NCBI GenBank assembly: GCA_902787575.1
Contig: CADAGX010000008.1
Location: forward strand, 25,189-89,188
DNA: 64,000 nucleotides
DNA from: an uncultured Bacteroidales bacterium
GTDB lineage: Bacteria; Bacteroidota; Bacteroidia; Bacteroidales; Bacteroidaceae
Direction of reading: 5' to 3'
The notes under the pieces are model-generated. The model saw only the letters and a list, made by a program, of their open reading frames with translations. It was not told the DNA's origin and ran no database searches. Each line of letters opens with the position of its first letter. Within the stretch, counting starts at the first letter, position 1. This document shows, piece by piece, positions 5,127-58,981 of this stretch. The translations under genes and the position numbers were made by a program.

Positions 5127-6170
5127 TTAGCATAAGTTTACGAAACTTTCCAATCTTTGCTTGATTCCTTCAAAATCCGTATTCAAGTCCAAGGTACGAA
5201 TAAATAGAGAATATCCATCTCTATGATTTATTGTAGCATCATCAAAGTCATCATTCTTTGTCTTTGCATATAAAAGCATGCCATCCACATTATGATGATG
5301 TTCTCTATCATATTCATCAACGTAGGTACGAATCTGATAAAGGTTATTATTACGAATAGTTTCCTTGCCGTATTGCTGCTGCAATATCTTGGAGTAGTAT
5401 TTCGTATCAATTATGAGAATCCTTTCACCCACTGTCAGCAAGATATCCGTTTGCATAATAGGTAGAACAGAAGTGTCTGTTGACTCTTCTATTATATTCC
5501 AACCTATCTGGGCAGCACAAGGATTAAACTCCGGATGGTGCTTCTTATAATACGACAAGACAAACTTCTCAAACAATCTGCACAAATGATCATCCGAGAA
5601 TGACTGCATCTTGAAGTTTCCATTTTCTGTTGTCAGCAGCCACTCCCTCACAATAAAGTAACAGATATATAGCAACATCCTGTAGTTCTTGTTATTGCGG
5701 TCGAATCTGAGGCGATCCCAATGAATTGTACGAATATCTATGACACTCACATCTTGGAAGAATAACATCAGCTTCTTCAGTTTCACTTTTGTTTCTTTCT
5801 TTACCTCAGAATGCTTCAGTAAAATGTGAGTTGTAGCCACAAGAATCTGATTGTAGATATTATCTTCTGTCAGCACGTCAAAATCACAACTTATCTGTTG
5901 ATTATTTCGCATCCTGTTTCTTATGGTTTCACTCATATTTATCTTGCCTCTTACCGTCAGCAATGACTCGTTATGCGAAACATATCCCCGATAAAGTCCT
6001 TGTTTCAACTGGTAAGATATGCCTCGACCTAATATCTCAGCAAAGAGGTCATAGATATCATCAAACGCCTCGCCTTCTATTTCTGCATAGTTATTCTGCC
6101 TAAGTTCCTGAAACGCATAGGCAAGCATATAATAGATATTACGTATCAGTATGCCTCTATCTTCTGTCAT
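5127..6170 (-). CDS. mcrC: McrC-like nuclease subunit of a McrBC-type restriction system
   Basis: 347-aa McrC-family protein, the nuclease partner of the McrB motor in modification-dependent (type IV) restriction. A PD-(D/E)xK-type core is visible near residues 237-255 as MQTDILL ... RILIIDTKYYSK. The N-terminal half (RNIYYMLAYAFQELRQNNY, GRGISYQLKQGLYRGYV) is typical of the family. Its ATG overlaps the mcrB stop by 4 nt, so the two are translationally coupled. Codon use is AT-rich, in sharp contrast to the arg genes on one side and to the rest of the window, which indicates horizontal acquisition. Confidence 0.92.
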   Translation of the reverse strand: MTEDRGILIRNIYYMLAYAFQELRQNNYAEIEGEAFDDIYDLFAEILGRGISYQLKQGLYRGYVSHNESLLTVRGKINMSETIRNRMRNNQQISCDFDVLTEDNIYNQILVATTHILLKHSEVKKETKVKLKKLMLFFQDVSVIDIRTIHWDRLRFDRNNKNYRMLLYICYFIVREWLLTTENGNFKMQSFSDDHLCRLFEKFVLSYYKKHHPEFNPCAAQIGWNIIEESTDTSVLPIMQTDILLTVGERILIIDTKYYSKILQQQYGKETIRNNNLYQIRTYVDEYDREHHHNVDGMLLYAKTKNDDFDDATINHRDGYSLFIRTLDLNTDFEGIKQRLESFVNLC

Positions 6171-8635
6171 TTAATGGCATTTCTTAACTTTTGGGCTTCG
6201 CTATTAAAGCGCTCATCGTTGTCGAACCAATACTCCCTAAGCATAGGAATAATGTCATATTCTACAATGCTCACTAAATCATAATCGCTTTCTAAATCGC
6301 AAAGATAGCTATGACCTATACAGAATCCAGTTCCAAGAGAATCGTCGTCTGCTATCACCTTGTTCAACGCGATAAGCGCCTGAATCAACTTTTCAAGACG
6401 TATGTCACACAGATTTTTTATATAATCCTTGAATCCTGAATTCTCAAAAGCTGGCTTCATTTCATAGAAGCTAAAACGTCTGCGCAACGCGTAGTCTATC
6501 ATTGCAAGTGAACGGTCTGCCGTATTCATCATACCAATCAGATAGACATTTGAAGGAACGGCAAACCTTCTGTCGGCATAAGATAGTTGTATTGGAGTAT
6601 CTCGATAGTCTTTCTCTATCATCATCAACAGTTCACCAAATATCTTGCTCAAGTTACCACGATTTATCTCATCAATGATAAAGAAATACTCATGTTCCTT
6701 GTCAGTTTCTGCCTTTCTGCAGAATTGATAGAAGATACCTTCTTTCAGGTCAAAACCACCATTCTCGTTTGGCTTATATCCCAACACAAAATCCTCATAA
6801 CTATAATTCTGATGGAACTGAACAACCTCTATTCTGTCATCATCCTTTTCGCCCATTATGGCATAAGCCAATCTTTTTGCCGCAAAGGTCTTTCCAACAC
6901 CTGGAGCACCTTGCAGAATGAGATTCTTCTTGCAACTCAATAGAGACTTCAATGTTTGCAATTGACGCTCATCCACAAACACATCCTTCAAGAAGTCTCT
7001 GTCAATATAGACTTCATTATTCCCCACCTCTGTATCAGATTCAGGATTCTCTTTGCGGATAAGAAGCATTATTTCCTTGTACTCCTCTTGAGTAAGTTGA
7101 AAGAGACTGCCCTGACAACGATTCATTACAGGTTCTGATTTCTTGAGAATTGGATTATTAAAAATTTCAGAATAAGGAACTGGTGATAGCAGTTCTTCTG
7201 TCTTTCGTATATACAGAACCTCACCATCCGTTTCTGATACCACACGTCCGAGGGCAACAATTAGGAGTACAGGAGAGGATTCATAAGCTATCACTAAATC
7301 GCCAGGCTTAGCTTCCATAAAATGCTTGAAGATACGCCTTTTATGTCCATCCTCATTATATAGTGTGTAATCTACATCTTCACCTAAGTCCCAATCATGA
7401 GAAGGACTCCAAATTTTGGGACTACCAGTTAACCACCAATAATGAATACCTGACGAATCAACAGCAGATTCTTGTCCCTCTATCAGATTATTTAAACTTT
7501 CAACATACTCATTATACCTTGTGATATTGGTTAAGGTCTTCATGGCGTTCTTTTCTGTCGTTTCCCACTCTCCTACATGAATCCATCGAACCTTTCTTAC
7601 ATGCTTGTAATCATTTCGGCCCGCATCAAAAATATAGTCAGATGTTACCACACCTCTACCTACTATTTTTGTCAATCCCTTCTTGGCAAATACTATATCG
7701 CCTTCCTTCATTTCGCGAGAAAATTGCCACACAGCCAAAGAGTCATTCTTAGCACTGCCATCAGTTGGATAATACTTCTTTATCTCAGACCTAACATCCT
7801 CGCGAGTCCTATATTTCGACACATCGCCAAGTTTATCCCAGCCAATGCATATAATGCCTTCCTCTTGACATTCCAGCCACTTAGAAGCATTCTCACCGGG
7901 AGCATACATCCAGTAGTTTACAGAATCTTGTTTATGCAAATCTCCTTTACTTGCCTCATCATTTTGTTTATATGTCATCTGCGAGAATTCTGCATAATTA
8001 CGGCAGTCGATTTCTCCTGACTTCATTTTAGCATCAACTTGCTTCAATATATTCTCATACTCGTCATAACTAACGAATTTACCACCCTTGAATGACGCTA
8101 TTCCTAATGTCTCCAGTTTCTTACGATTGTTGCCGTCAAAAGCAAGAAATCTATCTGGACGAATCCAGAACAGGCCCATAGTAATATTATATTTAATTAG
8201 GAATTGGCCATTTAAAGCATTATATGCATCCTCAATATCTTTATCAAGAACCGCACACTCAAACAACTCCCAAAGTCTATCAATATCACTTTCTACCCTA
8301 TCTTCTTCAAAACCAATAAAATTTGACCTTTGGTTATTCATTTCTGGCACACCCGTAAAATCTTGTGGGACTGATGCAGAAATATCTAAGAAACTCTTGA
8401 ATTGCTTACAAAGTTCGAACTTTTTATTGTATGTAATTCCACGATTAATAATCGCCATTACCGTGAAAGGGTCTGTATCAGAAACACGTCTGCCGTCAGT
8501 ACCATCTTTGAAATGCTTGATAAGACTTCCATCAATGTTATCATATATCCAGTTTACCAGCGGAGTTCTGTTCTCTCTATACTTCAAGAGTTTCTTAGCA
8601 AACTCCATAAAAAAGGGGATCCAAGAGAATGTCAT
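6167..8635 (-). CDS. mcrB: McrB-like AAA+ GTPase with two EVE-type modified-base reader domains
   Basis: 822-aa McrB-family motor. The N-terminal ~235 residues are a domain I cannot name. Next come two EVE/PUA-like modules: one starts near residue 238 (VNYWMYAPGENASKW ... GDIVFAKK), the second near 395 (IHYWWLTGSPKIW ... GDLVIAYE). EVE domains in this family read modified cytosine or adenine. The McrB AAA+ domain has Walker A GAPGVGKT near 574-581, Walker B FFIIDEINRGN and the signature MMNTADRSLAMIDYALRRRF. It is expected to restrict modified foreign DNA together with McrC. A start at the downstream ATG (8608) is also possible. The gene is AT-rich and probably acquired by transfer. Confidence 0.92.
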   Translation of the reverse strand: MTFSWIPFFMEFAKKLLKYRENRTPLVNWIYDNIDGSLIKHFKDGTDGRRVSDTDPFTVMAIINRGITYNKKFELCKQFKSFLDISASVPQDFTGVPEMNNQRSNFIGFEEDRVESDIDRLWELFECAVLDKDIEDAYNALNGQFLIKYNITMGLFWIRPDRFLAFDGNNRKKLETLGIASFKGGKFVSYDEYENILKQVDAKMKSGEIDCRNYAEFSQMTYKQNDEASKGDLHKQDSVNYWMYAPGENASKWLECQEEGIICIGWDKLGDVSKYRTREDVRSEIKKYYPTDGSAKNDSLAVWQFSREMKEGDIVFAKKGLTKIVGRGVVTSDYIFDAGRNDYKHVRKVRWIHVGEWETTEKNAMKTLTNITRYNEYVESLNNLIEGQESAVDSSGIHYWWLTGSPKIWSPSHDWDLGEDVDYTLYNEDGHKRRIFKHFMEAKPGDLVIAYESSPVLLIVALGRVVSETDGEVLYIRKTEELLSPVPYSEIFNNPILKKSEPVMNRCQGSLFQLTQEEYKEIMLLIRKENPESDTEVGNNEVYIDRDFLKDVFVDERQLQTLKSLLSCKKNLILQGAPGVGKTFAAKRLAYAIMGEKDDDRIEVVQFHQNYSYEDFVLGYKPNENGGFDLKEGIFYQFCRKAETDKEHEYFFIIDEINRGNLSKIFGELLMMIEKDYRDTPIQLSYADRRFAVPSNVYLIGMMNTADRSLAMIDYALRRRFSFYEMKPAFENSGFKDYIKNLCDIRLEKLIQALIALNKVIADDDSLGTGFCIGHSYLCDLESDYDLVSIVEYDIIPMLREYWFDNDERFNSEAQKLRNAIK

Positions 8636-9193: not shown

Positions 9194-9316
9194 TCAGGGG
9201 AGTATTATCCGCTGTTCATGTGTCCGAAGGTCGGTGATGGCTTGCTCGATACTCTTCTCCGGGTCTTGCATCTGTCGCACCTTCAGCGCTATGTTTGCTA
9301 TCTGCTCTCTTTGCAG
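9194..9316 (-). pseudogene. Possible C-terminal remnant of an unidentified protein
   Basis: Immediately outside the heptamer element the minus strand reads an open segment ending IEQAITDLRTHEQRIILP-stop. Its upstream part runs into repeat sequence and then a stop, with no plausible start codon. The ~38 residues look like a charged helical C-terminus, but I do not recognise a family. It may be the tail of a gene truncated by repeat insertion, or chance. Confidence 0.3.
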
Positions 9317-9720
9317 GGACTTACGCCCCTGCCTGTACCCTTTTGCCCCTTCGGGACATCCTCAAATTCCGAAACGCGAACACAACTTGCCATGCCATGT
9401 GTCATCCCGACGTCAGGAGGGATCTCATGCAATCGTGGTGGTGAGATTCTTCCTCCGCTTCGCTCCCTCAGAATGACAATGCTGGTGTGCCTCGTGGAGG
9501 GCGGAATTTGACAAGCCCCACCTTCGGGCTGCGCCCTCACCAATCGCTTGAGCGCATAACGCGCGATTGCCCTACAGTCGTTCGCCTTAGAATGACAAGG
9601 GTGGCGTGTCTTGTGCCATGCGGTCGAATGCTATGCACTTTGCATTTTGCACTTTGCATTTGGTGTGGCCTTGTGTTGGGATGTCTGGCTGAGTGGGGAA
9701 AAGAAAAATCCTAAGCGTCT
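9300..9720. repeat. Mosaic of intergenic repeats left of tRNA-Phe
   Basis: No gene is seen. The stretch holds a GCAGGGACTTACGCCCCTGC unit (9314-9333) that recurs at 10.37 (inverted) and 10.49 kb, a REP-like block with CTTCCTCCGCTTCGCTCCCT that recurs inverted near 10.27 kb, one copy of the two-hairpin family (9506-9578; GGGC/GCCC then CAATCGC/GCGATTG), and CACTTTGCATTTTGCACTTTG microsatellite units near 9640-9660. Confidence 0.75.
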
Positions 9721-9750
9721 GCGTGCGAGATACTTAGGAATCTTTGGCTG

Positions 9751-9823
9751 TGGTGTCACCAGGAATCGAACCGGGGACACAAGGATTTTCAGTCCTTTGC
9801 TCTACCAACTGAGCTATGACACC
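9751..9823 (-). tRNA. tRNA-Phe (GAA)
   Basis: 73-nt cloverleaf on the minus strand. The acceptor stem GGTGTCA pairs with TGACACC, the D arm has GCTCAGTTGGTAGAGC, the anticodon loop CTGAAAA carries GAA (codons UUC/UUU), and the T arm contains GGTTCGATTCC. The 3' CCA is not encoded. A TACCTTTG box lies 47 nt upstream. Confidence 0.97.
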
Positions 9824-9870
9824 AACAAAAAAGAAGTTCATTTTGCGCCTCCTTGTCGGATTTGCGGATG

Positions 9871-9878
9871 CAAAGGTA
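9871..9878 (-). promoter_or_regulatory. Promoter -7 box for tRNA-Phe
   Basis: TACCTTTG on the minus strand, matching TAnnTTTG, 47 nt upstream of the tRNA-Phe 5' end. Confidence 0.5.
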
Positions 9879-9962
9879 GGCACTTTTTTGCATTTGTGCA
9901 ACTTTTTCGCAATTATTTTTAATTTTTATGGCAGAAAACGATGCAATTCTCTAATTTATTCG

Positions 9963-9970
9963 TAACTTTG
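9963..9970 (+). promoter_or_regulatory. Promoter -7 box for tRNA-Pro
   Basis: TAACTTTG matches TAnnTTTG and lies 17 nt before the mature tRNA-Pro 5' end. Confidence 0.6.
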
Positions 9971-9987
9971 CAGCCGAAAACAGGAAT

Positions 9988-10060
9988 CGGAAAGTAGCGC
10001 AGTTGGTAGCGTACTACGTTCGGGACGTAGGGGTCGGGAGTTCGAGTCTCCTCTTTCCGA
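9988..10060 (+). tRNA. tRNA-Pro (CGG)
   Basis: 73-nt cloverleaf: acceptor CGGAAAG / CTTTCCG, D arm GCGCAGTTGGTAGCGT, anticodon stem CTACG/CGTAG with loop TTCGGGA giving anticodon CGG (codon CCG), and T arm GGGAGTTCGAGTCTCC. The CCA end is not encoded. It is oriented away from tRNA-Phe, 164 nt apart. Confidence 0.96.
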
Positions 10061-10963
10061 CTGGAAGAAGGAAGCTTCTCTCGTTAGAGAGGGGCTTGTT
10101 TTGTTGGGTGAGATTCCTCTTGTCGTCGGAATGACAATGGCATGGCAAGTCGTGTTCGCGTTTCGGAATTTGACAAGCCCCGCCTTCGGGCTGCGCCCTC
10201 ACCAATCGCTTGAACGCATAACGCGCGATTGCCCTACAGCGTGGTGCTATCGAAGCGAGTGTCATTCTGAGGGAGCGAAGCGGAGGAAGAATCCCACACA
10301 GATATGCGAATGAGATTCCTCCTGTCGTCGGAATGACAATGGTGGAGCGATTAGCCCCGAAGGGGTGTCAGAGCACAGGCAGGGGTGAAGCCCCTGCAAG
10401 AGGTTGCACCCGCATGGCAGCCCTGAATGGGCGGCAGAATGATTGCGCTCTGTCGCACCTTCGGCGCTTTGTCGGATGTACGAACCAGTAGCAGGGACTC
10501 TCGCCCCTGCCTGTATTCTCCTGCCCCTTCGGGGCGTTATCCCGTGGCACGCGGAATTTGACATGGATTTGGGTCGCTTCGCTCGAAATTTTATTTAAAA
10601 TTCGTATTTAAAATTTTGTTTATAATGGCTCGTGCTGGGATGAGATTCCTCCTTGCCATGCGGAATTTGACAAGCATTTCTCCGCCTTCGGGCAGAGCAC
10701 TGCCCTCACCAAGCCCTCAGACACGAAACGACATTTAGTCGTTTCTCTACGGTACGGTCTGGGCTTGCCCTACCCGTGATGCGACAATGCCGGGGGGTGT
10801 CTGGTGGTGGGTGTGCCCTACCCTTTCCCTTCTTCGGGCAGAGCACTGCCCTCACCTCTGCGGCGAACGAATTGACATCCAGTCAATTCTCTCAAAAGAG
10901 TCGCCGTTCGCCCTCTCCGAGGAGAGGGGCACAACTATGGACTATGCACTATGCACTTTTTTT
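10061..10963. repeat. Gene-free repeat field between tRNA-Pro and the secreted protein gene
   Basis: I find no gene in these ~900 bases. Repeats in order: two-hairpin family copy at 10163-10238; inverted REP-like block near 10260-10295; GCAGGGG-type palindromes at 10357-10405 and 10492-10545; an AT-rich patch near 10580-10620; two-hairpin copies at 10685-10775 and 10831-10910; a GC-rich CCGAGGAGAGGGG unit near 10917; then ACTATG units up to 10956, next to the stop codon of the following gene. Confidence 0.75.
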
Positions 10964-13174
10964 TTACTTCACCAGCACTTTTTTGCCGCGCATGATGTAG
11001 AGGCCGCGACGGGGCTGTGTGATGCGGCGGCCTGCGAGGTCGAACACTTCGTTCTTCTGGCCGTCGAGGCTGACGGAGGCGACGCTGGAGCCGGTGGCGG
11101 TGAAGCTGAGGGCGAAGAGCTGGCCTGCGTTCTTGTAGATGTAGCCGGGGATGCCGGTGACGGTGTAGGTCTTGCCTTCGTAGTCCTCGGGGGCGGCTAT
11201 GCCGGGTGTGCGGGTGCGCAGTTGCAGGGTGTGGCCCTCGGCGTCGGTGAGGTAGGTGTTGCCAAGGGTGTCGAGGCTGACGGTGACGCCCTGCAGCTCA
11301 ACGAGGTTGCAGAGGTTGCGGAGCTCTACGACGTCGCTGACGGTGCTCTGCACGGGCACGGGTGTCTGGCCTGTCTCGCTGACGAGGATGGTGGTGACGT
11401 CGGTGGAGTCGCACTTGGTGAACTCGGGTATGCCGTAGTAGTTCTTGAGGTGGCACTTGACTTCGCCGCCCAGCAGGTCGCCTGCCTTGCAGGTGAGGCC
11501 GAGCTGATAGAGCTCGACGGCTTTGTCGCCCTGACGGACGAAGATGGCATCGGCGTCGGCATAGATGACTTCGGCTGCGTTGAGCAGCAGGCGGGTGTTG
11601 CTCTTGGCGGTGGCGTTGGCAGTGGTCTTGCCTTCTACTGCAGCCACGGCCTCGGCGATGGTGATGTCGGTGAAGGTGACTACGATGGGCACGTCGTCGG
11701 GCTCGGTCTTACCGTTGATGGAATAGAGGTAGTTGCCTTGTGTGAACTCGTAGGTGCCGTTGTAGTTGACGAGCTGGCCGTAGACGATGACTTCGTCGCC
11801 TTCCTTGAGTGCTGCCTCGGAGGGGAACTTCTCGTTCTTGAGGTAGTTGCCACGATAGACGAGCAGTGAGTCGCCGGCGCTGGCTATGGTGTAGTTGGCG
11901 TTGCCGAAGCCGAGGTCGATGGAGGGCTGGCCGGCCACGGTGCCGCGGACGTAGACTTTGCAGTCGAGGCCTTCGCCGGCTGTGATGAGTGCGCGGGCCT
12001 GGCCTACGGTGTAGGCGGAGTCGGGCGTATTGGTGATGTCCTTACCGATGACGGCATTGTCGATGGTGATGGCGGTGGCTGCGATGTTGACGTAGCTGTT
12101 GTTGCTGCTGGTGTAGACGGCGATGCCATAGACGGTGACGGTGCTGCCGCTGGTGAGGCCTTTGGTGAGTTCCTCGGTGGGATAGATGATGGAGCCCTTG
12201 GCGGTGCTGCCCTCGACGGCTAAGTTGTAGTAGGCGCCGGAGATGCTGAGCACGCCGGTGACCTTGACGTACTGTACGACGGGCGAGGCGGCCCATGCGT
12301 CGAGGTCTATCTCTTCGGGCTCGGGCAGGGCGAAGGTCTCGGTGCCGGTCTTGGTGATGGTGGCTGTGGCCGTGAACTGGTTGAAGCCGCCGTAAGCGGA
12401 GACGGCGCCCTTGACGGTGCACTTGTCGCCAACGGCGAGGCCGCTGATGGACTGGTTGTAGTAGTAGATGTAGCCAGTGGCATCGGCAAAGACGGCGCCG
12501 CGGGTGTTCACTGCCACTACGGTGCCCTCGATGGTGCAGCTGGAGCCGGCCGAGAGCTTCTGTGCGGCCTCGATGGTGATGATGTCCTCGCCGGGCACAT
12601 CGCCGCCACCGCCGCCACCGCCGTCGTCGAGGCCTCCGTCTGTGGTGGTCAGCGAGGCGTCGTCTACGATGAGGTCGGAATAGAATTTCTGGTTCTTGCT
12701 GTCGGTCTTGGGGTTCATGGCCACGAGATTGATGGTGGCGGCTGCATCGAGCTTAAACTGGAAGGTGACTTGCACCCAAGTGGTGGCGATGTCGTTTGTG
12801 TAGTCGCCATAGACGTAGGTGCCCACCGTGCCGTCGGCCTTCAAGGGGACGTAGCCGATGCGGATGGAGCCCTTGGGGTCGTCCGACGGGCTCTTGACCC
12901 AGAGAGAGAAGGTGTAGGTGCCGGCCTTCAGCGCGAGTTCCTTGTAGGCAAGGCGCTTGTTGGAGGTGGCGTTCTTGACGACAACTGCGTACGAGCCTGC
13001 GTGGGCATCGGTGCTCTGCTCGAGGGTGGCGTTGCTGGCCGTGTTGGTGGACTTCCAATGGTCGGGCTGGCCGTCGGTCCACGACTCGAAGTTGCCGTTT
13101 GTCAAAAGTTCGGTCTGCGCCCAGCCGGCTACGGCCATAAGTGCGGCAAACAGAGTGAGTAAGATTTTCTTCAT
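10964..13174 (-). CDS. Secreted multidomain protein with carbohydrate-binding-like and OB-like modules
   Basis: 736 aa. A Sec signal peptide (MKKILLTLFAALMAVAGWA) precedes a beta-rich module (LLTNGNFESWTDGQPDHW ... FYSDLIVDDASL, residues ~22-175) resembling the CBM4/9-like domains of secreted enzymes. A Gly/Asp linker (~178-192) leads into repeated segments of the type CTIEGTVVAV / VYVRGTVAG / VIVYGQLVNYNGTYEF that look like OB-fold repeats common in Bacteroidetes surface proteins. The C-terminus (VFDLAGRRITQPRRGLYIMR, then a short basic tail) is the short tail found on many exported Prevotella proteins. No catalytic motif is recognised. It lies downstream of ruvA-cysQ on the same strand but has its own candidate promoter. 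Confidence 0.75.
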   Translation of the reverse strand: MKKILLTLFAALMAVAGWAQTELLTNGNFESWTDGQPDHWKSTNTASNATLEQSTDAHAGSYAVVVKNATSNKRLAYKELALKAGTYTFSLWVKSPSDDPKGSIRIGYVPLKADGTVGTYVYGDYTNDIATTWVQVTFQFKLDAAATINLVAMNPKTDSKNQKFYSDLIVDDASLTTTDGGLDDGGGGGGGDVPGEDIITIEAAQKLSAGSSCTIEGTVVAVNTRGAVFADATGYIYYYNQSISGLAVGDKCTVKGAVSAYGGFNQFTATATITKTGTETFALPEPEEIDLDAWAASPVVQYVKVTGVLSISGAYYNLAVEGSTAKGSIIYPTEELTKGLTSGSTVTVYGIAVYTSSNNSYVNIAATAITIDNAVIGKDITNTPDSAYTVGQARALITAGEGLDCKVYVRGTVAGQPSIDLGFGNANYTIASAGDSLLVYRGNYLKNEKFPSEAALKEGDEVIVYGQLVNYNGTYEFTQGNYLYSINGKTEPDDVPIVVTFTDITIAEAVAAVEGKTTANATAKSNTRLLLNAAEVIYADADAIFVRQGDKAVELYQLGLTCKAGDLLGGEVKCHLKNYYGIPEFTKCDSTDVTTILVSETGQTPVPVQSTVSDVVELRNLCNLVELQGVTVSLDTLGNTYLTDAEGHTLQLRTRTPGIAAPEDYEGKTYTVTGIPGYIYKNAGQLFALSFTATGSSVASVSLDGQKNEVFDLAGRRITQPRRGLYIMRGKKVLVK

Positions 13175-38940: not shown

Positions 38941-38949
38941 CAGCCGTTA

Positions 38950-39024
38950 TCGGGGGTGCCTCGTCGGTTGGTGGGGCTGAGAACATACCCTAATGATCTG
39001 AACCGGGTAGTGCCGGCGTAGAGA
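38950..39024 (+). ncRNA. TPP riboswitch (THI element)
   Basis: Contains the conserved thiamine pyrophosphate aptamer blocks in order: GGGGTGCC, GGGGCTGAGA, ATACCC, TGATCTGAACCGGGTA, TGCCGGCGTAGAGA. It lies directly upstream of a TonB-dependent receptor and a PnuT-like permease and should switch off their expression when TPP is abundant. The aptamer ends only a few bases before the first possible start codon, consistent with translational control. Confidence 0.95.
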
Positions 39025-39026
39025 GT

Positions 39027-41477
39027 ATGAACAATTTAAACAACAAAAACATGATGAGAAGATTCTGCATGGCAGCTGCACTTGTGGCAAGTGTGGCAGT
39101 GAACGCATTGGGACAGACAACAGGCAACAGACAAAAGACTACGGGCTACGGACAAACACGAATCATAGAACACAAGATTTACACGACAGACAGTCTGGCC
39201 TACGAGCAGCGGCTCACGGAACTGCTGGTGAAGGGCGTGCAAGCGCCAAAGGATGCTCCGTTTGCGGTGAGCAACATCAGTTTCGGCCAACTGCAGCAGT
39301 TCGCCCACAGCGGGCAGGAGTTGCCATTTCTGCTGGCCCGCACCCCGGGTGTGATGGCCTGGAGCGACAACGGCATCGGCACGGGAACCACTTACATGCG
39401 TATCCGTGGAGCCGGCGACAGTCGCATCAACATTACGCTGGACGGCGTGGCGCTGAACTCGCCCGAGGACCAGTGTGTCTTCTGGGCCAACATGAATTCG
39501 TACGCGAGCATGCTGGGCGGCATACAGATACAACGCGGAGTGGGCACATCGACTAACGGCGACGGCGCGTTCGGCGGAACGGTGGCCATGAAGATGCGCG
39601 CCTCGTCGCTGGTGCCGATGCTGGAACTGACGAGCAGCTACGGCTCGTACAACACGTACCACGCCGGCGGCAACTTCGGCACGGGTCTGCTGGCCGAGCA
39701 CTGGACGCTGGACGGCGCCTTCCACCACACAGGCACCGACGGCTACGTACACGGCACGGCGGGCAACTCGGGCAGCTACTTTGCCAACTTGGCTTACCAA
39801 CGTGGCGACGGAACGCTGCGCATAAACCTGAAGAACATCGGCAACTACGAGAAAACGGGCCAAGCGTGGAACGGCGTCGTGGCCGGCAACAATGACTACA
39901 GCATGAACGCCTACGACGGCATACGCACGTACGCCGACATGTATCGCGTCGGGCTGGGACGCTTCAACAACCTCTACGAGTCGTTCGAGCCCGACTGGGC
40001 CGGCAGTTGGACCATCGGACGCTATCAGATGGCCGACGGCTCGCTCTGGCGACGGACTACAGACAACTTCTGGCAAAACCGCACGCTGCTGAGTATGGCC
40101 TACCGCATAAGCCCGCACTGGAGCATGTCGGGGACGCTACACTACACACACGGCTACGGATACTACGAGGAGTTCCGCCCGCAGAACAAGCTGAAGAAGT
40201 TCGGCCTCTCGAACCTGACGCTCACCGACGGCTCGACGCTGAAGAAGGACGACTTCGTCCGCCGCAAGGGACTGACACAGAACACATACGGCATGATGTG
40301 GCATGCCAACTACACGAGCCGGCGTTGGGACATCGTGGGAGGTGCCTCGTTCCAGAACTTCGAAGCCGACCACTGGGGCTATCTGACGTATGCGGCCAAC
40401 GCCGAACTGGCAGCGCAACTGCTGGCTAACGGCCGCTATCAGTACTACGACTCGGGCGCCGACAAGTGCGACCAGAATGTCTTCGCCAAGGCGCTGCTGC
40501 ACATGACGTCGCACTGGGACGCCTTCGCCGACCTGCAGTATCGCCACGTCAGCTTCCAGACGGGCGGCATAAACGACAAGTTCTACGAGAGCGGAAGCAC
40601 ATATTACAACCAGCCGCTCGACATCTTCAAGCGCTACGACTTCCTGAATCCGAAGGTGGGACTCAACTACCACTGCGGCAATCACCGAGCCTACGCCTCG
40701 TACGCTATGAGCCACCGCGAGCCGGAACGTAACAACTTCACAGACAACGGGTCCTACCCCGCCCCGCGAGCCGAGGAACTGCACGATGTGGAGATGGGAT
40801 ACGAGTTCGCGGGACGCATCTGGCACGTAGGGCTGAACCTCTTCTCCATGCTCTATCAAAACCAGTTCGTGCAGACGGGACTGAAAAGCGACATCGGCGA
40901 GAACCTTACCACGAACGTGAAGAAGAGCTACCGCATGGGAGGCGAACTGACGGCAGGCGTCAGCCTCACGAAATGGCTCTCGCTGGAGGCCAACGCTACA
41001 TTGAGCCGCAACGGTATCACAGACTTCGACGAAATCGTGGAGACGTACGACGCTTCGTGGAACGAGTTGGCACCCACCACCGTACACTACTCGAAGTCCA
41101 CGCTGGCCTTCTCGCCTACCATGCTGCTGAACGGCTTCGCCGATTTCCACTTCAAGGGATTCGAAGCCACGTGGCACACGGGCCACGTGAGCCGCCAGTA
41201 CCTCGACAACACCGAGAACCGCGACCGCTCGCTGCCCGCCTACACGCGCACCGACGTGCAACTGAGCTACGACTGGAACGTGGGCGCACGCGGACTGAAG
41301 CACGCCATCTTCGGCCTTCAGCTCGGCAATATCTTCAATCGCCACTACGCCTCGGGCGGCTGGGTCTACAGCAGCATCGTCGGCCCCACCTATCCCGAGT
41401 CTGCCCGCTACTACCAGATAGGCTACATCCCGATGGCCGGATTCACAGCAATGGGCAACATAACGCTCAAGTTCTGA
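39027..41477 (+). CDS. TonB-dependent outer-membrane receptor, predicted for thiamine
   Basis: 816 aa. Signal peptide (FCMAAALVASVAVNALG), plug domain near residues 60-185 (PFLLARTPGVMAWSDN, YMRIRGAGDSRINITLDG, GGIQIQRGVGTS), then a beta-barrel ending in the aromatic residue Phe (MGNITLKF). Its position directly behind a TPP riboswitch and in front of a PnuT-like gene argues for uptake of thiamine or a precursor across the outer membrane. The ATG at 39027 almost touches the aptamer; 39051 or 39054 (MMRRFCM) would give a more normal signal peptide. Confidence 0.88.
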   Translation: MNNLNNKNMMRRFCMAAALVASVAVNALGQTTGNRQKTTGYGQTRIIEHKIYTTDSLAYEQRLTELLVKGVQAPKDAPFAVSNISFGQLQQFAHSGQELPFLLARTPGVMAWSDNGIGTGTTYMRIRGAGDSRINITLDGVALNSPEDQCVFWANMNSYASMLGGIQIQRGVGTSTNGDGAFGGTVAMKMRASSLVPMLELTSSYGSYNTYHAGGNFGTGLLAEHWTLDGAFHHTGTDGYVHGTAGNSGSYFANLAYQRGDGTLRINLKNIGNYEKTGQAWNGVVAGNNDYSMNAYDGIRTYADMYRVGLGRFNNLYESFEPDWAGSWTIGRYQMADGSLWRRTTDNFWQNRTLLSMAYRISPHWSMSGTLHYTHGYGYYEEFRPQNKLKKFGLSNLTLTDGSTLKKDDFVRRKGLTQNTYGMMWHANYTSRRWDIVGGASFQNFEADHWGYLTYAANAELAAQLLANGRYQYYDSGADKCDQNVFAKALLHMTSHWDAFADLQYRHVSFQTGGINDKFYESGSTYYNQPLDIFKRYDFLNPKVGLNYHCGNHRAYASYAMSHREPERNNFTDNGSYPAPRAEELHDVEMGYEFAGRIWHVGLNLFSMLYQNQFVQTGLKSDIGENLTTNVKKSYRMGGELTAGVSLTKWLSLEANATLSRNGITDFDEIVETYDASWNELAPTTVHYSKSTLAFSPTMLLNGFADFHFKGFEATWHTGHVSRQYLDNTENRDRSLPAYTRTDVQLSYDWNVGARGLKHAIFGLQLGNIFNRHYASGGWVYSSIVGPTYPESARYYQIGYIPMAGFTAMGNITLKF

Positions 41478-52970: not shown

Positions 52971-53156
52971 TTCGTAACTTTGGCATGATGAGCCGAAATT
53001 ACTGCGTCTCGGCGTAAAAAGAAAAATTGCTTTTTTCTTTGTTCTGCACTCGACTTTTCGTAACTTTGGCATGATGAGCCGAAATTACTGCGTCTCGGCA
53101 TAAAAAGAAAAATTGCTTTTTTCTTTGTTCTGCACTCGACTTTTCGTAACTTTGCC
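52971..53156 (+). promoter_or_regulatory. Tandemly duplicated promoter before kbl
   Basis: Two direct 86-bp repeats (period from 52971 to 53057 to 53143), differing at one base visible to me (GGCGTAAAAA / GGCATAAAAA), plus a partial third. Each ends in TTTTCGTAACTTTG, so three TAACTTTG -7 boxes lie in a row. In the repeated unit a TTTG stands 19 nt upstream of the box, the spacing of the Bacteroidetes -33 element. The hairpin AAAGAAAA / TTTTTTCTTT lies just before it. Confidence 0.8.
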
Positions 53157-53187
53157 CAAACAAATACGAACTAACACAACAAACATC

Positions 53188-54378
53188 ATGTACGGGAAAA
53201 TGAAAGAGCACCTCAGCCAGACGTTGGCTGAGATTCACGAGGCCGGGCTTTACAAAGAAGAGCGCCTCATCGAGAGCCCGCAGCGGGCAGCTATTCAGGT
53301 GGCAGGAAAGGAAGTGCTGAACTTCTGCGCCAACAACTATCTGGGCCTCTCGGACCATCCGCGGCTCATCGAGGCCTCCAAGCGAATGATGGACCGCCGC
53401 GGCTTCGGCATGTCGAGTGTGCGTTTCATCTGCGGCACGCAGGACATCCACAAGGAACTGGAGGCCGCCATCTCAGACTACTTCAAGACCGAGGACACGA
53501 TACTCTACGCAGCATGCTTCGATGCAAACGGCGGCGTATTCGAACCGCTTTTCACCGAGGAGGATGCCATCATCAGCGACGCGCTGAACCACGCCTCCAT
53601 CATTGATGGTGTGCGCCTCTGCAAGGCCAAACGCTATCGCTACGCCAATGCCGACATGCAGGAACTGGAGAAGTGTCTGCAGGAAGCACAGGAGCAGCGT
53701 TTCCGCATCATCGTGACGGACGGAGTTTTCTCGATGGACGGCAACGTAGCGCCCGTGGACAAGATCTGCGACCTGGCCGAGAAGTACGACGCGCTGGTAA
53801 TGGTGGACGAGAGCCACTCGGCCGGCGTGGTGGGCAAGACGGGCCACGGCGTAAGCGAGTTTTTCCAGACTTACGGCCGCGTAGACATCTACACCGGCAC
53901 GCTGGGCAAGAGCTTCGGCGGCGCACTGGGCGGCTTCACCACCGGACGTAAGGAAATCATCGACCTTCTGCGCCAGCGTTCGCGCCCCTATCTGTTCTCC
54001 AACTCACTGGCTCCGGCCATCATCGGCGCCTCGCTCGAGGTCTTCCGCATGCTGAAGGAGAGCGATGAGATACACGACCGCCTGGTGGAAAACGTAGAAT
54101 ACTTCCGCGCCAAAATGATGGCCGCAGGCTTCGACATCAAGCCCACGCAGAGCGCCATCTGCGCCGTGATGCTCTACGACGCCAAGCTCTCGCAGGTCTA
54201 TGCCGCCAAGTTGCAGGAGGAAGGCATCTACGTCACCGGCTTCTACTACCCCGTAGTACCGAAAGGACAGGCCCGCATCCGCGTGCAAATCTCGGCCGGC
54301 CACAACCGCCAGCAACTCGACCGCTGCATCGAGGCCTTCATCAAGGTGGGCCGCGAGTTGGGTGTACTGAAAGATTAA
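53188..54378 (+). CDS. kbl: Glycine C-acetyltransferase (2-amino-3-ketobutyrate CoA ligase)
   Basis: 396-aa PLP-dependent alpha-oxoamine synthase; splits 2-amino-3-ketobutyrate with CoA to glycine and acetyl-CoA, the second step of threonine breakdown. NNYLGLSDHPRL, SVRFICGTQDIHKELE, DESHSAGVVG and the PLP-lysine region GTLGKSFGGALGG are present. The ATG at 53188 gives the family start MYGKMKEHL. The longer frame upstream is promoter repeat. Confidence 0.94.
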   Translation: MYGKMKEHLSQTLAEIHEAGLYKEERLIESPQRAAIQVAGKEVLNFCANNYLGLSDHPRLIEASKRMMDRRGFGMSSVRFICGTQDIHKELEAAISDYFKTEDTILYAACFDANGGVFEPLFTEEDAIISDALNHASIIDGVRLCKAKRYRYANADMQELEKCLQEAQEQRFRIIVTDGVFSMDGNVAPVDKICDLAEKYDALVMVDESHSAGVVGKTGHGVSEFFQTYGRVDIYTGTLGKSFGGALGGFTTGRKEIIDLLRQRSRPYLFSNSLAPAIIGASLEVFRMLKESDEIHDRLVENVEYFRAKMMAAGFDIKPTQSAICAVMLYDAKLSQVYAAKLQEEGIYVTGFYYPVVPKGQARIRVQISAGHNRQQLDRCIEAFIKVGRELGVLKD

Positions 54379-54545
54379 GGATTAGAGATTAGGGCAAGCC
54401 CAGACCTCTGAGAAACGACTCGATGTCGCTTCGTGTCTGAAGGCTTGGTGAGGCCAGTACCCTGGCCGAAGAAGGAATTAGATATTAGGGAGCGTGAATC
54501 ATCATTCCGCTTCCTAATCTTTATATTTCAGCCACAGCGAAAATA
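54379..54545. repeat. Two-hairpin repeat copy after kbl
   Basis: The minus strand of 54392-54472 matches the copy at 10685-10775. First stem GGCCAG/CTGGCC (54452-54467) replaces GGGCAG/CTGCCC, and the second stem GAAGCGAC/GTCGTTTC keeps an A..A loop (ATCGA). It is flanked by ATTAGAGATTAG units. Confidence 0.75.
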
Positions 54546-55283: not shown

Positions 55284-58004
55284 ATGACTGACAACGTAAC
55301 GCAGATAGAAGGCATCACGCACCATCTGAACCAGATGTATCAGAACTGGTTTCTCGACTATGCCTCGTACGTAATACTCGAACGTGCCGTGCCGCACATT
55401 GGCGACGGCTTTAAGCCCGTGCAGCGCCGCATCATGCACTCGATGAAGCGCATGGACGACGGACGATACAACAAGGTGGCCAACATCGTAGGCCACACCA
55501 TGCAGTTCCATCCGCATGGCGATGCTTCCATCAAGGACGCACTCGTGCAACTGGGACAGAAGGACCTGCTGGTGGACTGCCAGGGCAACTGGGGCAACAT
55601 ACTTACGGGTGATGACGCTGCAGCCGGCCGATACATAGAGGCACGCCTCTCGAAGTTCGCACTCGACGTGGTCTTCAACCCGAAGACGACGGAATGGAAG
55701 CTCTCATACGACGGACGCAACAAGGAGCCCATCGCGCTGCCTGTGAAGTTCCCGCTGCTGCTGGCACAGGGTGCCGAAGGCATTGCCGTGGGACTCAGCT
55801 GTAAGATTCTGCCACACAACCTGAACGAGATTTGCGACGCAGCCATCAGCTATCTGCATGGCGAGGAGTTCCACCTCTACCCCGACTTCCCCACGGGCGG
55901 CAGCATCGACGTCTCGAAGTACAATGACGGGCAGCGTGGCGGTGTCGTGCGCGTGCGTGCTAAAATAGAGAAGCGCGACAACAAGACGTTGGCCATCACC
56001 GAGATTCCGTACGGCAAGACCACGGGCACGGCCAGCAAGCCCAGCACCTTCATAGACAGCATACTGAAAGCGGCCGAGAAGGGAAAGATAAAGGTGCGCA
56101 AGGTGGAAGACATGACGGCTGCCAACGTGGAGATACTGATTCACCTGATGCCGGGTGCCTCGAGCGACAAGACCATCGACGCGCTCTATGCCTGCACCGA
56201 CTGCGAAGTTTCCATCTCGCCCAACTGCTGCGTCATAGACGAGCGCAAACCGTGCTTCCTCACTGTGAGCGAGGTTCTGAAACGCAACACGGACACCACG
56301 CTCGAGCTGCTGCGCAAGGAGCGTCTCATCCGCAAGGGCGAGCTGTTGGAGAGCCTGCATTTCGCCTCACTGGAGCGTATTTTCATCGAGGAACGCATCT
56401 ACAAGGACCGCCAGTTCGAGAACGCCAAGTCGATGGACGCTGCCTGCGAATGGATCGACGAACGACTGACTCCGTGGTACCCGAAGATGGTGCGCGAAGT
56501 GACGAAAGACGACATCCTGCGACTGATGGAGATTAAGATGGCGCGCATCCTGAAGTTCAACAAGGACAAAGCCGACGAACTGATTGCACGCATCAAGGAG
56601 GAACTGGCACAGATAGACCGCGAACTGAACAACATGGTGGAGGTGACGGCCGACTGGTTCCGCTTCATCAAGGAGAAATACGGCAAGGATCACCCGCGCC
56701 TGACGGAGATAAAGAGTTTCGACACCATCACCGCAGCCAAGGTGGTGGAAGCCAACGAGAAGCTGTACATCAACCGCGAGGAGGGATTCATCGGCACCAG
56801 CCTGAAGAAGGACGAGTACGTCTGCAACTGTTCAGACATAGACGATGTGATTCTCTTCTACAAGGACGGCACCTACAAGGTGGTGCGCATCGCAGACAAG
56901 CTGTTCATTGGCGAGACGGCGCGCTCTAAGGAGGAGAAGAAGAAAGCCGAAGTGATACACATCGCAGTCTTCAAGAAGAACGATTCGCGCACCATCTACA
57001 ACGTAGCCTATCGCGACGGCCGCACTGGCACCACGTACTACAAGCGCTTCAACGTGACGAGCATCACGCGCGACCGCGAGTACGATGTCACACAAGGCAA
57101 GCCCGGCAGCCGAGTGCTCTACTTCACAGCCAACCCGAATGGCGAGGCCGAGGTGATAAAGGTCACGCTCAAGCCCAACCCCAAGCTGAAGAAGGTCTTC
57201 TTCGACCGCGACTTCAGCGAACTGGCCATCAAGGGCCGCCAGAGCATGGGCAACGTGCTCACCAAGCTCGACGTGGCACGCATCGCCCTGAAGTCGCATG
57301 GCGGCAGCACGCTGGGCGGTCGCAAAGTGTGGTTCGACAGCGACGTCAAGCGCCTCAACTACGACGCACAGGGCACCTATTTGGGCGAGTTCAACAATGG
57401 CGACCAGATTCTGGTCATCCTCTCGGGCGGCGAGTTCTACGTCACCAACTTCGACACCAACAACCACTTCGAAGACAACATGCTGCGCATCGAGAAGTAC
57501 GATGCCAACAAGATTTGGACGGCAGCACTCTTCGATGCCGAGCAGAGCGGGTATCTCTACTTGAAGCGCTTCCCGCTCGAGGCCACCACACGCCACCAGA
57601 ACTTCCTGGGCGAGAATCCCGACAACCGGCTGGCAGTGCTGACCGATGTAGCCTATCCGCGCATCCTCGTGACGATGGGCGGCACCGACGACTTCCGCGA
57701 GCCCATAGAGGTGGATGCCGAATCGTTTATCGGAGTCAAGAGCTTCAAGGCACGCGGCAAGCGCGTCACCACGCTCACCGTGGCCAGTGTGGAAGAACTG
57801 GAGCCTCTGCGCTGGCCCGAACCGGCGGCCGAAGAGGAGGAAACTGCCGAGGAGCCCGACCAGCCCGATGCAGACGAAGAGCTGCCGCAGTCGCTGCCCG
57901 ACACCGAAAGCGACGACACCGAAGACGAGCCCGAGACCGAAGACGAGAAGAGCCAGCAGGACGTAGCCGACGAGCTGAACGGCCAGCTCCATCTGTTTGA
58001 TTAA
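55284..58004 (+). CDS. parC: DNA topoisomerase IV subunit A
   Basis: 906 aa. Type IIA topoisomerase A subunit: KPVQRRIMHSM, the quinolone-region motif HPHGDASIKDAL (76-87), and catalytic Tyr117 in AAGRYIEARLS. The C-terminal half forms the pinwheel domain, ending in an acidic Glu/Asp/Pro tail (residues ~848-895). It is longer than Escherichia coli ParC (752 aa), mostly because of the C-terminal region. parE is not in the window. The tail end overlaps nothing; the next gene's ATG follows its stop by 4 nt. Confidence 0.93.
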   Translation: MTDNVTQIEGITHHLNQMYQNWFLDYASYVILERAVPHIGDGFKPVQRRIMHSMKRMDDGRYNKVANIVGHTMQFHPHGDASIKDALVQLGQKDLLVDCQGNWGNILTGDDAAAGRYIEARLSKFALDVVFNPKTTEWKLSYDGRNKEPIALPVKFPLLLAQGAEGIAVGLSCKILPHNLNEICDAAISYLHGEEFHLYPDFPTGGSIDVSKYNDGQRGGVVRVRAKIEKRDNKTLAITEIPYGKTTGTASKPSTFIDSILKAAEKGKIKVRKVEDMTAANVEILIHLMPGASSDKTIDALYACTDCEVSISPNCCVIDERKPCFLTVSEVLKRNTDTTLELLRKERLIRKGELLESLHFASLERIFIEERIYKDRQFENAKSMDAACEWIDERLTPWYPKMVREVTKDDILRLMEIKMARILKFNKDKADELIARIKEELAQIDRELNNMVEVTADWFRFIKEKYGKDHPRLTEIKSFDTITAAKVVEANEKLYINREEGFIGTSLKKDEYVCNCSDIDDVILFYKDGTYKVVRIADKLFIGETARSKEEKKKAEVIHIAVFKKNDSRTIYNVAYRDGRTGTTYYKRFNVTSITRDREYDVTQGKPGSRVLYFTANPNGEAEVIKVTLKPNPKLKKVFFDRDFSELAIKGRQSMGNVLTKLDVARIALKSHGGSTLGGRKVWFDSDVKRLNYDAQGTYLGEFNNGDQILVILSGGEFYVTNFDTNNHFEDNMLRIEKYDANKIWTAALFDAEQSGYLYLKRFPLEATTRHQNFLGENPDNRLAVLTDVAYPRILVTMGGTDDFREPIEVDAESFIGVKSFKARGKRVTTLTVASVEELEPLRWPEPAAEEEETAEEPDQPDADEELPQSLPDTESDDTEDEPETEDEKSQQDVADELNGQLHLFD

Positions 58005-58008
58005 ACCA

Positions 58009-58839
58009 ATGGCAAGGGTGAAAGCGCTGAGTCTCATAAAGTTTCCAAGCCGCCTCTGGGCCGTCCTTTGCGGTCTGTGGTGCGCCCTGTCCGTCTGCGC
58101 CCAAGGCGGTCCGACGGACGAGACGTGGCTGGTGGGCATCGGCCGCCTGCGCCAGCAGGACACCTACCTCTCTCCGCTCCACTACCGCGGTCCGCAGCTC
58201 ACCTTCGTTCGCGAGACGTTCCATCCCACTCGCCGCTGCCAGCAGCGCATCGTCTTCCAGAGCTATCTGCAGGGCGCCTTCTCCTACACCGAAAACAAGC
58301 CGGGCACGGCCAACGAGTGGGGCGGCCGACTGGGCTACAATGCCGGATGGCACTACCAGTGGACACCGCTCTCCGGTCTCCGTCTGATGGCTGGCGCACT
58401 GGTGGGCACCCGCCTCGGCATTGTCTATAACGACCAAGGCGGCAACAACCCTGCACAGGGGCGCGCCGCCATAGATGTCTCGGCCTCCGTCTTGGCGTCT
58501 TACCACTTCCGCCTCGGCCGCAAGACGCTCGGTGTGCGCTATCAGGCCCTCCTGCCGCTGGCCGGCTGCATGTTCTCGCCCCAGTACGGGCAGAGCTACT
58601 ACGAACTCTCGGAGGGCAACCGCGACCACAACATCGTCTTCACGCAGCCCTTCAACGCGCCTAGCCTGTGGCAACTGCTCAGCATTGACATTCCGTTCCG
58701 CCGCTACACCCTGCGCACAGGCTACCTGAGCGACATTCGCCAGAGCCATGTCAATGGCATCAAGTCGCACGACATCAGCCGCTCCTTCATGCTCGGCTTC
58801 GTCAAGCGTTTCAGCATCGTTTCACCAAAATTGGATTAG
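58009..58839 (+). CDS. Exported beta-rich protein of the DUF3316 type
   Basis: 276 aa. A long N-terminus (ALSLIKFPSRLWAVLCGLWCALSVCA) serves as signal peptide. The body looks like a small outer-membrane or periplasmic beta-barrel: alternating aromatic/hydrophobic strands (GYNAGWHYQWTPLSGLRLMAG, YRGPQLTFVRETF) and a C-terminal strand FMLGFVKRFSI. It matches the protein I know as DUF3316 that follows parC in Bacteroides; function unknown. The ATG at 58009 is preferred to the TTG at 57997, which lies inside parC. Confidence 0.7.
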   Translation: MARVKALSLIKFPSRLWAVLCGLWCALSVCAQGGPTDETWLVGIGRLRQQDTYLSPLHYRGPQLTFVRETFHPTRRCQQRIVFQSYLQGAFSYTENKPGTANEWGGRLGYNAGWHYQWTPLSGLRLMAGALVGTRLGIVYNDQGGNNPAQGRAAIDVSASVLASYHFRLGRKTLGVRYQALLPLAGCMFSPQYGQSYYELSEGNRDHNIVFTQPFNAPSLWQLLSIDIPFRRYTLRTGYLSDIRQSHVNGIKSHDISRSFMLGFVKRFSIVSPKLD

Positions 58840-58981
58840 AGATTAGAGTCTCCCCTCCCTCGGTCAATCGTGCGCTATGTGTTCAAGCGATTGGTGAGGG
58901 CATAGCCCGAAGATGTTCCGGGTTGGGGGTGAGACTACTATTTACGCCCCTCTCCTCGGAGAGGGGTTGGGGGTGAGGCTG
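58840..58981. repeat. Repeat field between DUF3316 and preA
   Basis: GATTAGAGATTAGAG units, an inverted two-hairpin copy (58862-58920; stem CAATCG/CGATTG and GGGC/GCCC), then a GC-rich CCCCTCTCCTCGGAGAGGGG palindrome with GTTGGGGGTGAGGC ending near the preA stop. Confidence 0.7.

Follow-up and report, generated by a model that had tools for sequence, protein, structure and literature searches.

A dispersed family of small two-hairpin elements, conserved as a fold, in an uncultured Bacteroidales bacterium and its relatives

Introduction

GTAG REPs and REPINs, which occur with RAYT (TnpAREP) genes, are described in PMC3733652 and PMC6006769 as short, intergenic, palindromic, multicopy repeats that lie near gene 3′ ends and cluster with other repeats, and the repeat family analyzed here shares all of these traits. 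According to PMC6006769, RAYT genes of subclass 2.6 in Bacteroidetes carry the motif YIHQNP and are flanked by atypical structures. CGTC REPs, which occur in Bacteroidetes among others, lack a dedicated transposase and are single hairpins of 8 to 9 bp with a stem that almost always starts with A-T and a tail that is mostly CCA (PMC3733652).

We analyzed six copies of a two-hairpin repeat in a window of 64,000 nt, the whole stretch of DNA under study, from an uncultured Bacteroidales bacterium (contig CADAGX010000008.1 of assembly GCA_902787575.1). Unlike GTAG REPs, the element combines two hairpins with an inner stem, a bulge, and an apparent tandem G·A mismatch, has no GTAG tag of its own, and was absent at all RAYT and Y1 genes examined. 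A possible likeness to the CGTC REPs, for which no transposase is known either, is that most copies carry, on the other strand, CGTC at the edge of the unit directly before hairpin 1 (the tail reads GACG in 73 of 91 distinct rows and GAAG in 10, window copies included). In contrast to those REPs, however, hairpin 1 has about 6 pairs with a G-C first pair (86 of the 90 rows with letters there), a second, compound hairpin follows, the stems differ, and the window copies read CTTC. Like MITEs, the element is small, noncoding, dispersed, and intergenic, but it differs from them in that no terminal inverted repeats were seen on the unit, whose ends (CAAG.. or CGAC.. versus ..CGAAG or ..CGACG) are not complementary by reading, and in that its conservation lies at the level of the fold. 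The element does not appear to fall within any of the known REP families tested and seems to represent an undescribed family of small mobile elements in gut-type bacteria. We consider it probable, on balance, that all six window copies are members of one family of nonautonomous, dispersing DNA elements, small in size, that are conserved as a fold and act as a folded single strand.

Results

A sequence-only reading of the window had claimed six copies sharing one order of blocks, and all six were found by covariance-model matches (model R1 or R2) at converted coordinates (Table 1). The order given (CTTCGG, hairpin 1, CTCACC, hairpin 2) holds when read on the complement of the folding strand, and the stem letters quoted were correct, with both hairpins varying by paired substitutions. 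In contrast, the GCCCTAC that had been taken for the right end of the element is instead the GTAG end of the REP belonging to the genome's RAYT gene and is seen where the element is nested in that REP.

Table 1. Copies of the element in the window and an enclosing repeat
Feature	Position	Strand	Basis and context
Type-1 element, short hairpin 2 CAATCGC/GCGATTG	9522..9569	-	Model R1 match G000:C8:34710-34757:-; inside RAYT-type GTAG REP
Interrupted GTAG REP enclosing the type-1 element at 9522..9569	9503..9575	-	Pattern positions; REP defined at RAYT gene
Type-1 element	10184..10231	-	R1 match; inside GTAG REP 10165-10237
Type-2 element	10686..10767	-	R2 match G000:C8:35874-35955:-; inside GTAG REP 10662-10773
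Type-2-like element, different stems GAATTGAC/GTCAATTC	10832..10910	-	R2 match G000:C8:36020-36098:-
Type-2 element, hairpin 1 GGCCAG/CTGGCC	54391..54471	+	R2 match G000:C8:79579-79659:+
Type-1 element in CTCCC...GGGGGTGAG palindrome context	58865..58912	+	R1 match G000:C8:84053-84100:+

Within the REP that encloses the first copy, the foot GGAATTTGACA (read on the + strand) starts at 9503 and GCCCTAC ends at 9575. The third copy has a long hairpin 2 with the inner stem GAAACGAC/GTCGTTTC and the loop TAAAT on the folding strand, and the fourth lies downstream of an ORF on its own strand (10964-13174, -). The fifth copy begins 13 nt past an aminotransferase ORF (53113-54378, +) and has a similar ATTAGG-type sequence of 18 to 19 nt on both sides (score 12 in a direct-repeat search, versus 8 for the best of 50 shuffles); the sixth begins 26 nt past a DUF3316 ORF (57997-58839, +).

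The strict motif, CTTCGGGC-N3..20-CCCTCACC, occurred 24 times in the genome that contains the window (2.65 Mb in 34 contigs; 87% complete) and not once for the reversed control, which excludes chance. A looser form gave 38 matches versus 3 for its control, several of the 38 lying in coding sequence and looking like chance matches. Model R1, built from nine type-1 sequences, matched 26 places in this genome, and R2, built from four type-2 sequences, matched 7. Sorting of 37 motif rows from the fetched loci of this genome yielded 25 of type 1 (one copy represented twice), 5 of type 2, and 7 that were truncated or chance matches in coding sequence; the genome contains about 29 full copies in two subfamilies.

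Twelve of these copies (10 of type 1 and 2 of type 2) are enclosed on both sides by the GTAG REP, standing between its left end, GGAATTTGACAAG, and its right end. A piece of this REP, CTTGTCAAATTCC, occurs 56 times in the genome versus none for the control. Copies without the GTAG REP context run on into another G+C-rich palindrome: 11 are enclosed on both sides by a palindrome of the CCCTCC..GGAGGG type (12 rows, with one copy appearing twice), and two (L008 and L025) are hybrids of both flanking contexts. This nesting in different palindromes indicates that the element is a unit of its own. Accordingly, the element has neither a GTAG nor a GTGG foot tag of its own; GTAG is found just where a copy is nested in the REP of the RAYT gene, and flanks in relatives differ.

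On the folding strand, the full form consists, from 5′ to 3′, of the outer stem strand S1; a 5′ bulge, often TTTAGA; the inner stem S2, which has about 8 bp and ends in a loop of 5 nt, mostly T[AG]AAT; the returning strand S1′; the linker G[G/T]GAG; hairpin 1, with about 6 bp; and the tail CGA[C/A]G. In type 1, the form is shortened and hairpin 2 is simple, and elements range from about 48 to 90 nt. Loop, linker, and tail are nearly fixed while the stems vary. We also observed at least two hairpin modules of the CAAYG..CRTTG type standing serially before a like linker in three genus relatives (L146, L128, and L139); hairpin 2 is thus a module that can occur repeatedly or be exchanged for another.

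The earlier reading proposed that selection acts on a fold and named covariation across genome-wide copies as the means of checking it. The 109 R2 matches, fetched as 100 loci with two places represented twice (L163 and L233 being one place), left 91 distinct rows, in which 94.3% of pair cells pair and double changes occur at 17 of 19 pairs. Double-change cells numbered 417, versus 116.1 in shuffled alignments (0 of 500 shuffles reached the observed count) and at most 63 for slid structures; alignment to the model favors the structure, and related copies are counted many times, so that cells are not independent events. The 37 type-1 matches (32 distinct rows) had 98.4% of cells paired and 12 double-change cells, versus 1.6 shuffled. 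A script that required just a pairing 5-nt loop and the linker and tail motif returned 107 rows with a like anatomy. This strong covariation, with paired changes far above shuffles in copies from many species, supports selection on a fold.

An additional closing pair joins linker position 3 with tail position 4, with 73 G-C, 10 U-A, 1 A-U, and 2 G·U combinations, 4 unpaired rows, and 1 gap. The linker and tail thereby lengthen hairpin 1 by an apparent tandem G·A mismatch with this covarying pair on its outer side. Judged by its letters, the GA and GA between this pair and hairpin 1 would match the layout of tandem sheared G·A pairs. G·U cells outnumbered A·C cells (53 versus 19), which identifies the strand described here as the folding strand.

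Outside its own genome, the strict motif was found in only 1 of 119 relatives. R1 matched 16 of 101 genus genomes, with several of the weakest matches looking like chance matches in genes, and R2 matched 69 of 139 genus genomes, with 0 to 21 matches per genome. Model R3, built from 109 matches and run on 393 order genomes at an E value of 1e-4 with 12 candidates per genome scored, was positive in 4: the genome studied here and G280, G452, and G516, which all belong to a single distant genus. With that number of candidates scored, matches numbered at least 12 in G280, at least 12 in G452, and at least 9 in G516. The copies of the distant genus have in common the loop TAAAT, mostly GTG, the linker GGGGAG or close to it, hairpin 1 of the CACAGTGCTCTGTG type, and CGACG, and they differ in having A+T-rich outer stems and an extra hairpin within the bulge. 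Two consensus patterns for phage carriage gave no matches in viral contigs. Three viral motif matches, and 28 of 29 in genomes, lack hairpin 2 and look like chance, and we set phage carriage aside on these searches.

Identical cores of 75 to 82 nt, from copies of 14 genomes, were found at 12 pairs of different places with both flanks readable. For 10 of these pairs, the likeness ends within 0 to 29 nt to the left and to the right, and only 20 to 46 positions of the 100-nt flanks are identical; the left flank is alike in L214 and L215, and the right flank is alike in L157 and L223. Identical units in unlike flanks demonstrate that the unit disperses, and the element is mobile in this sense of dispersed identical units. 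Long direct repeats flank three copies (43 nt at L265, 33 nt at L251, and 19 nt at L170), but these lie outside the element and have another geometry.

We then weighed gene context against a different reading, in which the strand would fold and function as part of a transcript, for example, as a 3′-UTR structure that protects or terminates mRNA, with spread being secondary. Covariation, the nearly fixed loops, the tandem G·A, and the G·U bias all fit RNA, as do the six copies that overlap gene ends in sense and the two species pairs with copies at a matching gene end (see below). The sequence-only reading had noticed placement between genes and near gene ends in both orientations in the window; across 107 copies, placement is mostly near gene 3′ ends, on either strand, which speaks against this reading. 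Relative to the upstream gene, the folding strand has the sense orientation in 53 copies and the antisense orientation in 38; relative to the downstream gene, the corresponding numbers are 27 and 66. These counts rest on a crude longest-ORF caller, by which 26 of the 107 copies fell inside an ORF. Also against a functional RNA are the wide range of matches per genome between species and the results with Rfam, which had no match above the gathering score at the window copies, 20 loci of relatives, or 10 loci of the second genus, nor anything credible on the element at loose E values across window positions 9200 to 11100. A known RNA family was set aside on this lack of matches, and a functional RNA of another kind we hold to be possible but unlikely. 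We found no description of such a repeat in the literature on Bacteroidetes, Prevotella, and Bacteroidales repeats, mainly in freely accessible papers.

An atypical REP moved by a RAYT (TnpAREP), for example, one of the Bacteroidetes subclass 2.6 with its atypical structures (PMC6006769), was suggested by the nesting of the element in GTAG REPs. The genome has a single detected Y1_Tnp/RAYT-like gene (L001:1411-2016:-, with the motifs NHLH and YILNNP), and the element often lies inside the REP of that gene. This gene, however, is surrounded by six inverted GTAGGGAATTTGCTTGTCAAATTCC REPs in both orientations (L001:800-2150), and the element is not among its flanks. Elsewhere in the genome, this REP has the stem variants TCTTTG/CAAAGA and CATTTG/CAAATG.

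The other Y1 loci examined were likewise empty. R1, R2, and R3 gave no element matches in 30 Y1_Tnp loci, and R3 gave none in 24 loci, RAYT-type ones included, made up of four earlier loci and 20 stretches around weaker hits, two of which were the genes of L316 and L317 again. No element was present at the genus loci with the 2.6-like YIHQNP motif (L408, which is the L316 gene; L409, which is the L317 gene; L411; L413; and L427). At L413 and L427 (1897-2440), YIHQNP RAYT-like genes stand beside perfect hairpins of their own that are different, e.g., CAGGCGAATTTCGAAATTCGCCTG, and these are candidate REP-like structures of RAYT subclass 2.6.

Among genus genomes, presence of the element was independent of presence of Y1_Tnp (30/39/32/38; P = 0.86), and 11 of the 16 genomes with at least 7 copies had no Y1_Tnp match at an E value of 0.001. 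No transposase was detected in the 25 commonest families of neighboring proteins (102 of 193 neighbors scanned, with a second set of 57). The element thus did not prove to be a REP with a dedicated transposase, an outcome that the earlier reading had named as refuting it, as the sole detected RAYT has a different REP and the Y1 loci examined are without the element. Because Y1 presence is also nonpredictive, we dropped a RAYT origin on the strength of these loci and regard it as improbable.

Passive palindromes, spread by replication slippage, template switching, or gene conversion in the absence of both an enzyme and selection on a fold, might account for the direct repeats and the tandem or truncated second copies after several elements (L152, L153, L162, L168, L236, L237, and L319) and for the hybrid flanking contexts, but we judge them very improbable since a nearly fixed loop, linker, and tail with changing stems across many species, and paired changes in such excess over shuffles, are unexpected without selection.

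Six copies overlap a gene end in sense orientation (L152, L153, L162, L168, L236, and L237). In each, a near-repeat of the overlapping arm, 21 to 31 nt long, starts 7 to 14 nt past the tail, and in L152, L168, and L237 it continues into a truncated second element. The genes, by Pfam, are ilvD (L162 and L168), an ion-channel gene with a zinc ribbon (L153), a helicase gene (L152), and a DUF5606/DUF6852 gene (L236 and L237, the former by orthology). S1′ pairs with the last codons of all four, and in ilvD, the ion-channel gene, and the DUF5606/DUF6852 gene, orthologs that lack the element retain all or some of the codons with which S1′ pairs.

In ilvD, the 5′ outer arm is made up of codons for Gly-Val-Arg, which other species also have, although four of them have Ile in place of Val, and the element was present in none of 29 other fetched ilvD loci (from 120 genomes with a match). 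For the DUF5606/DUF6852 gene, 28 of 30 fetched loci were without the element, and all 25 readable tails of these keep Asn-Ile or Asn-Val at that place. The Cys-Pro-His-Cys-Gly tail of the ion-channel gene recurs in relatives, and scanning of 17 of 30 fetched loci gave one other match, off the gene end (L385).

Between L236 and L237, the element is identical at 58 of 59 positions and the preceding gene stretch at 253 of 300, with scarcely any alignment of the DNA downstream; this identity fits either retained function or recent spread. Between L162 and L168, the element (44 of 56) is no better conserved than the gene (218 of 289).

In a test of the host stem that scored the longest helix anywhere with G·U allowed, P values for the six copies were 0.0175, 0.16, 0.009, 0.55, 0.24, and 0.27, mostly not significant. 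An anchored test, with a Watson-Crick helix beside the linker, was chosen after that outcome; in it, five of the six copies scored 7 with their own gene versus 2 to 5 (mean, 3.0) across genes, the exception being L162 with a score of 3. Against shuffles, the anchored test gave P values of 0.004 to 0.036 for the five copies and 0.80 for L162. A host-derived outer stem, in which S1′ pairs with host codons beside the linker, is a lead from these results.

Discussion

The covarying fold, the distribution across a genus, the identical units in unlike surroundings, and the nesting in different palindromes are observations; for the mode of spread of the dispersing, folded single-stranded element that we favor, we infer the following. 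The unit would spread when its folding strand is single stranded and folded, and an enzyme acting in trans would recognize its shape together with the fixed loops and linkers. By analogy, this mode might resemble that of IS200/IS605 and REP systems; the local RAYT does not fit. Insertion may occur into G-rich palindromes and near gene 3′ ends, which would explain why the copies are intergenic.

With this element, the few bacterial interspersed palindromes gain a family of repeats that is defined by its structure and occurs in half of a genus. About 100 copies with nearly fixed recognition features were retrieved, and such numbers and fixed features, combined with no known mover, make the spread of REPs without a dedicated transposase directly testable through a protein that would bind this fold.

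The copies at gene ends raise the possibility of target capture by base pairing, in which the element would complete its outer stem with host sequence at the insertion site, S1′ being either a copy of the adjacent upstream target or a sequence selected because it pairs with that target. We put this forward tentatively, as a rather unlikely idea; if it is true, the covarying stems would partly record the history of insertion and not slow compensatory mutation.

Other features of the window accompany the element. Another dispersed repeat, with TGTCATTCTGAGGGAGCGAAGCGGAGGAAGAATCTCA and TGTCATTCCGACGACAGGAGGAATCTCA, lies at 9400-9480, at 10255-10345, and elsewhere, and by reading it resembles the CGTC REPs of PMC3733652. 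Repeats of CCCCTTCGGGGC are also present; several families of repeats form a mosaic at 9300-10960, inside which lie genes for tRNA-Phe (9750-9823, -) and tRNA-Pro (9988-10061, +). McrBC-type restriction genes at 5127-8635 (one for an McrBC component, the other for an AAA protein weakly similar to EVE) adjoin this mosaic. Finally, a TPP riboswitch at 38942-39042 stands just before a mechanical ORF (39027-41477, +) and overlaps its start.
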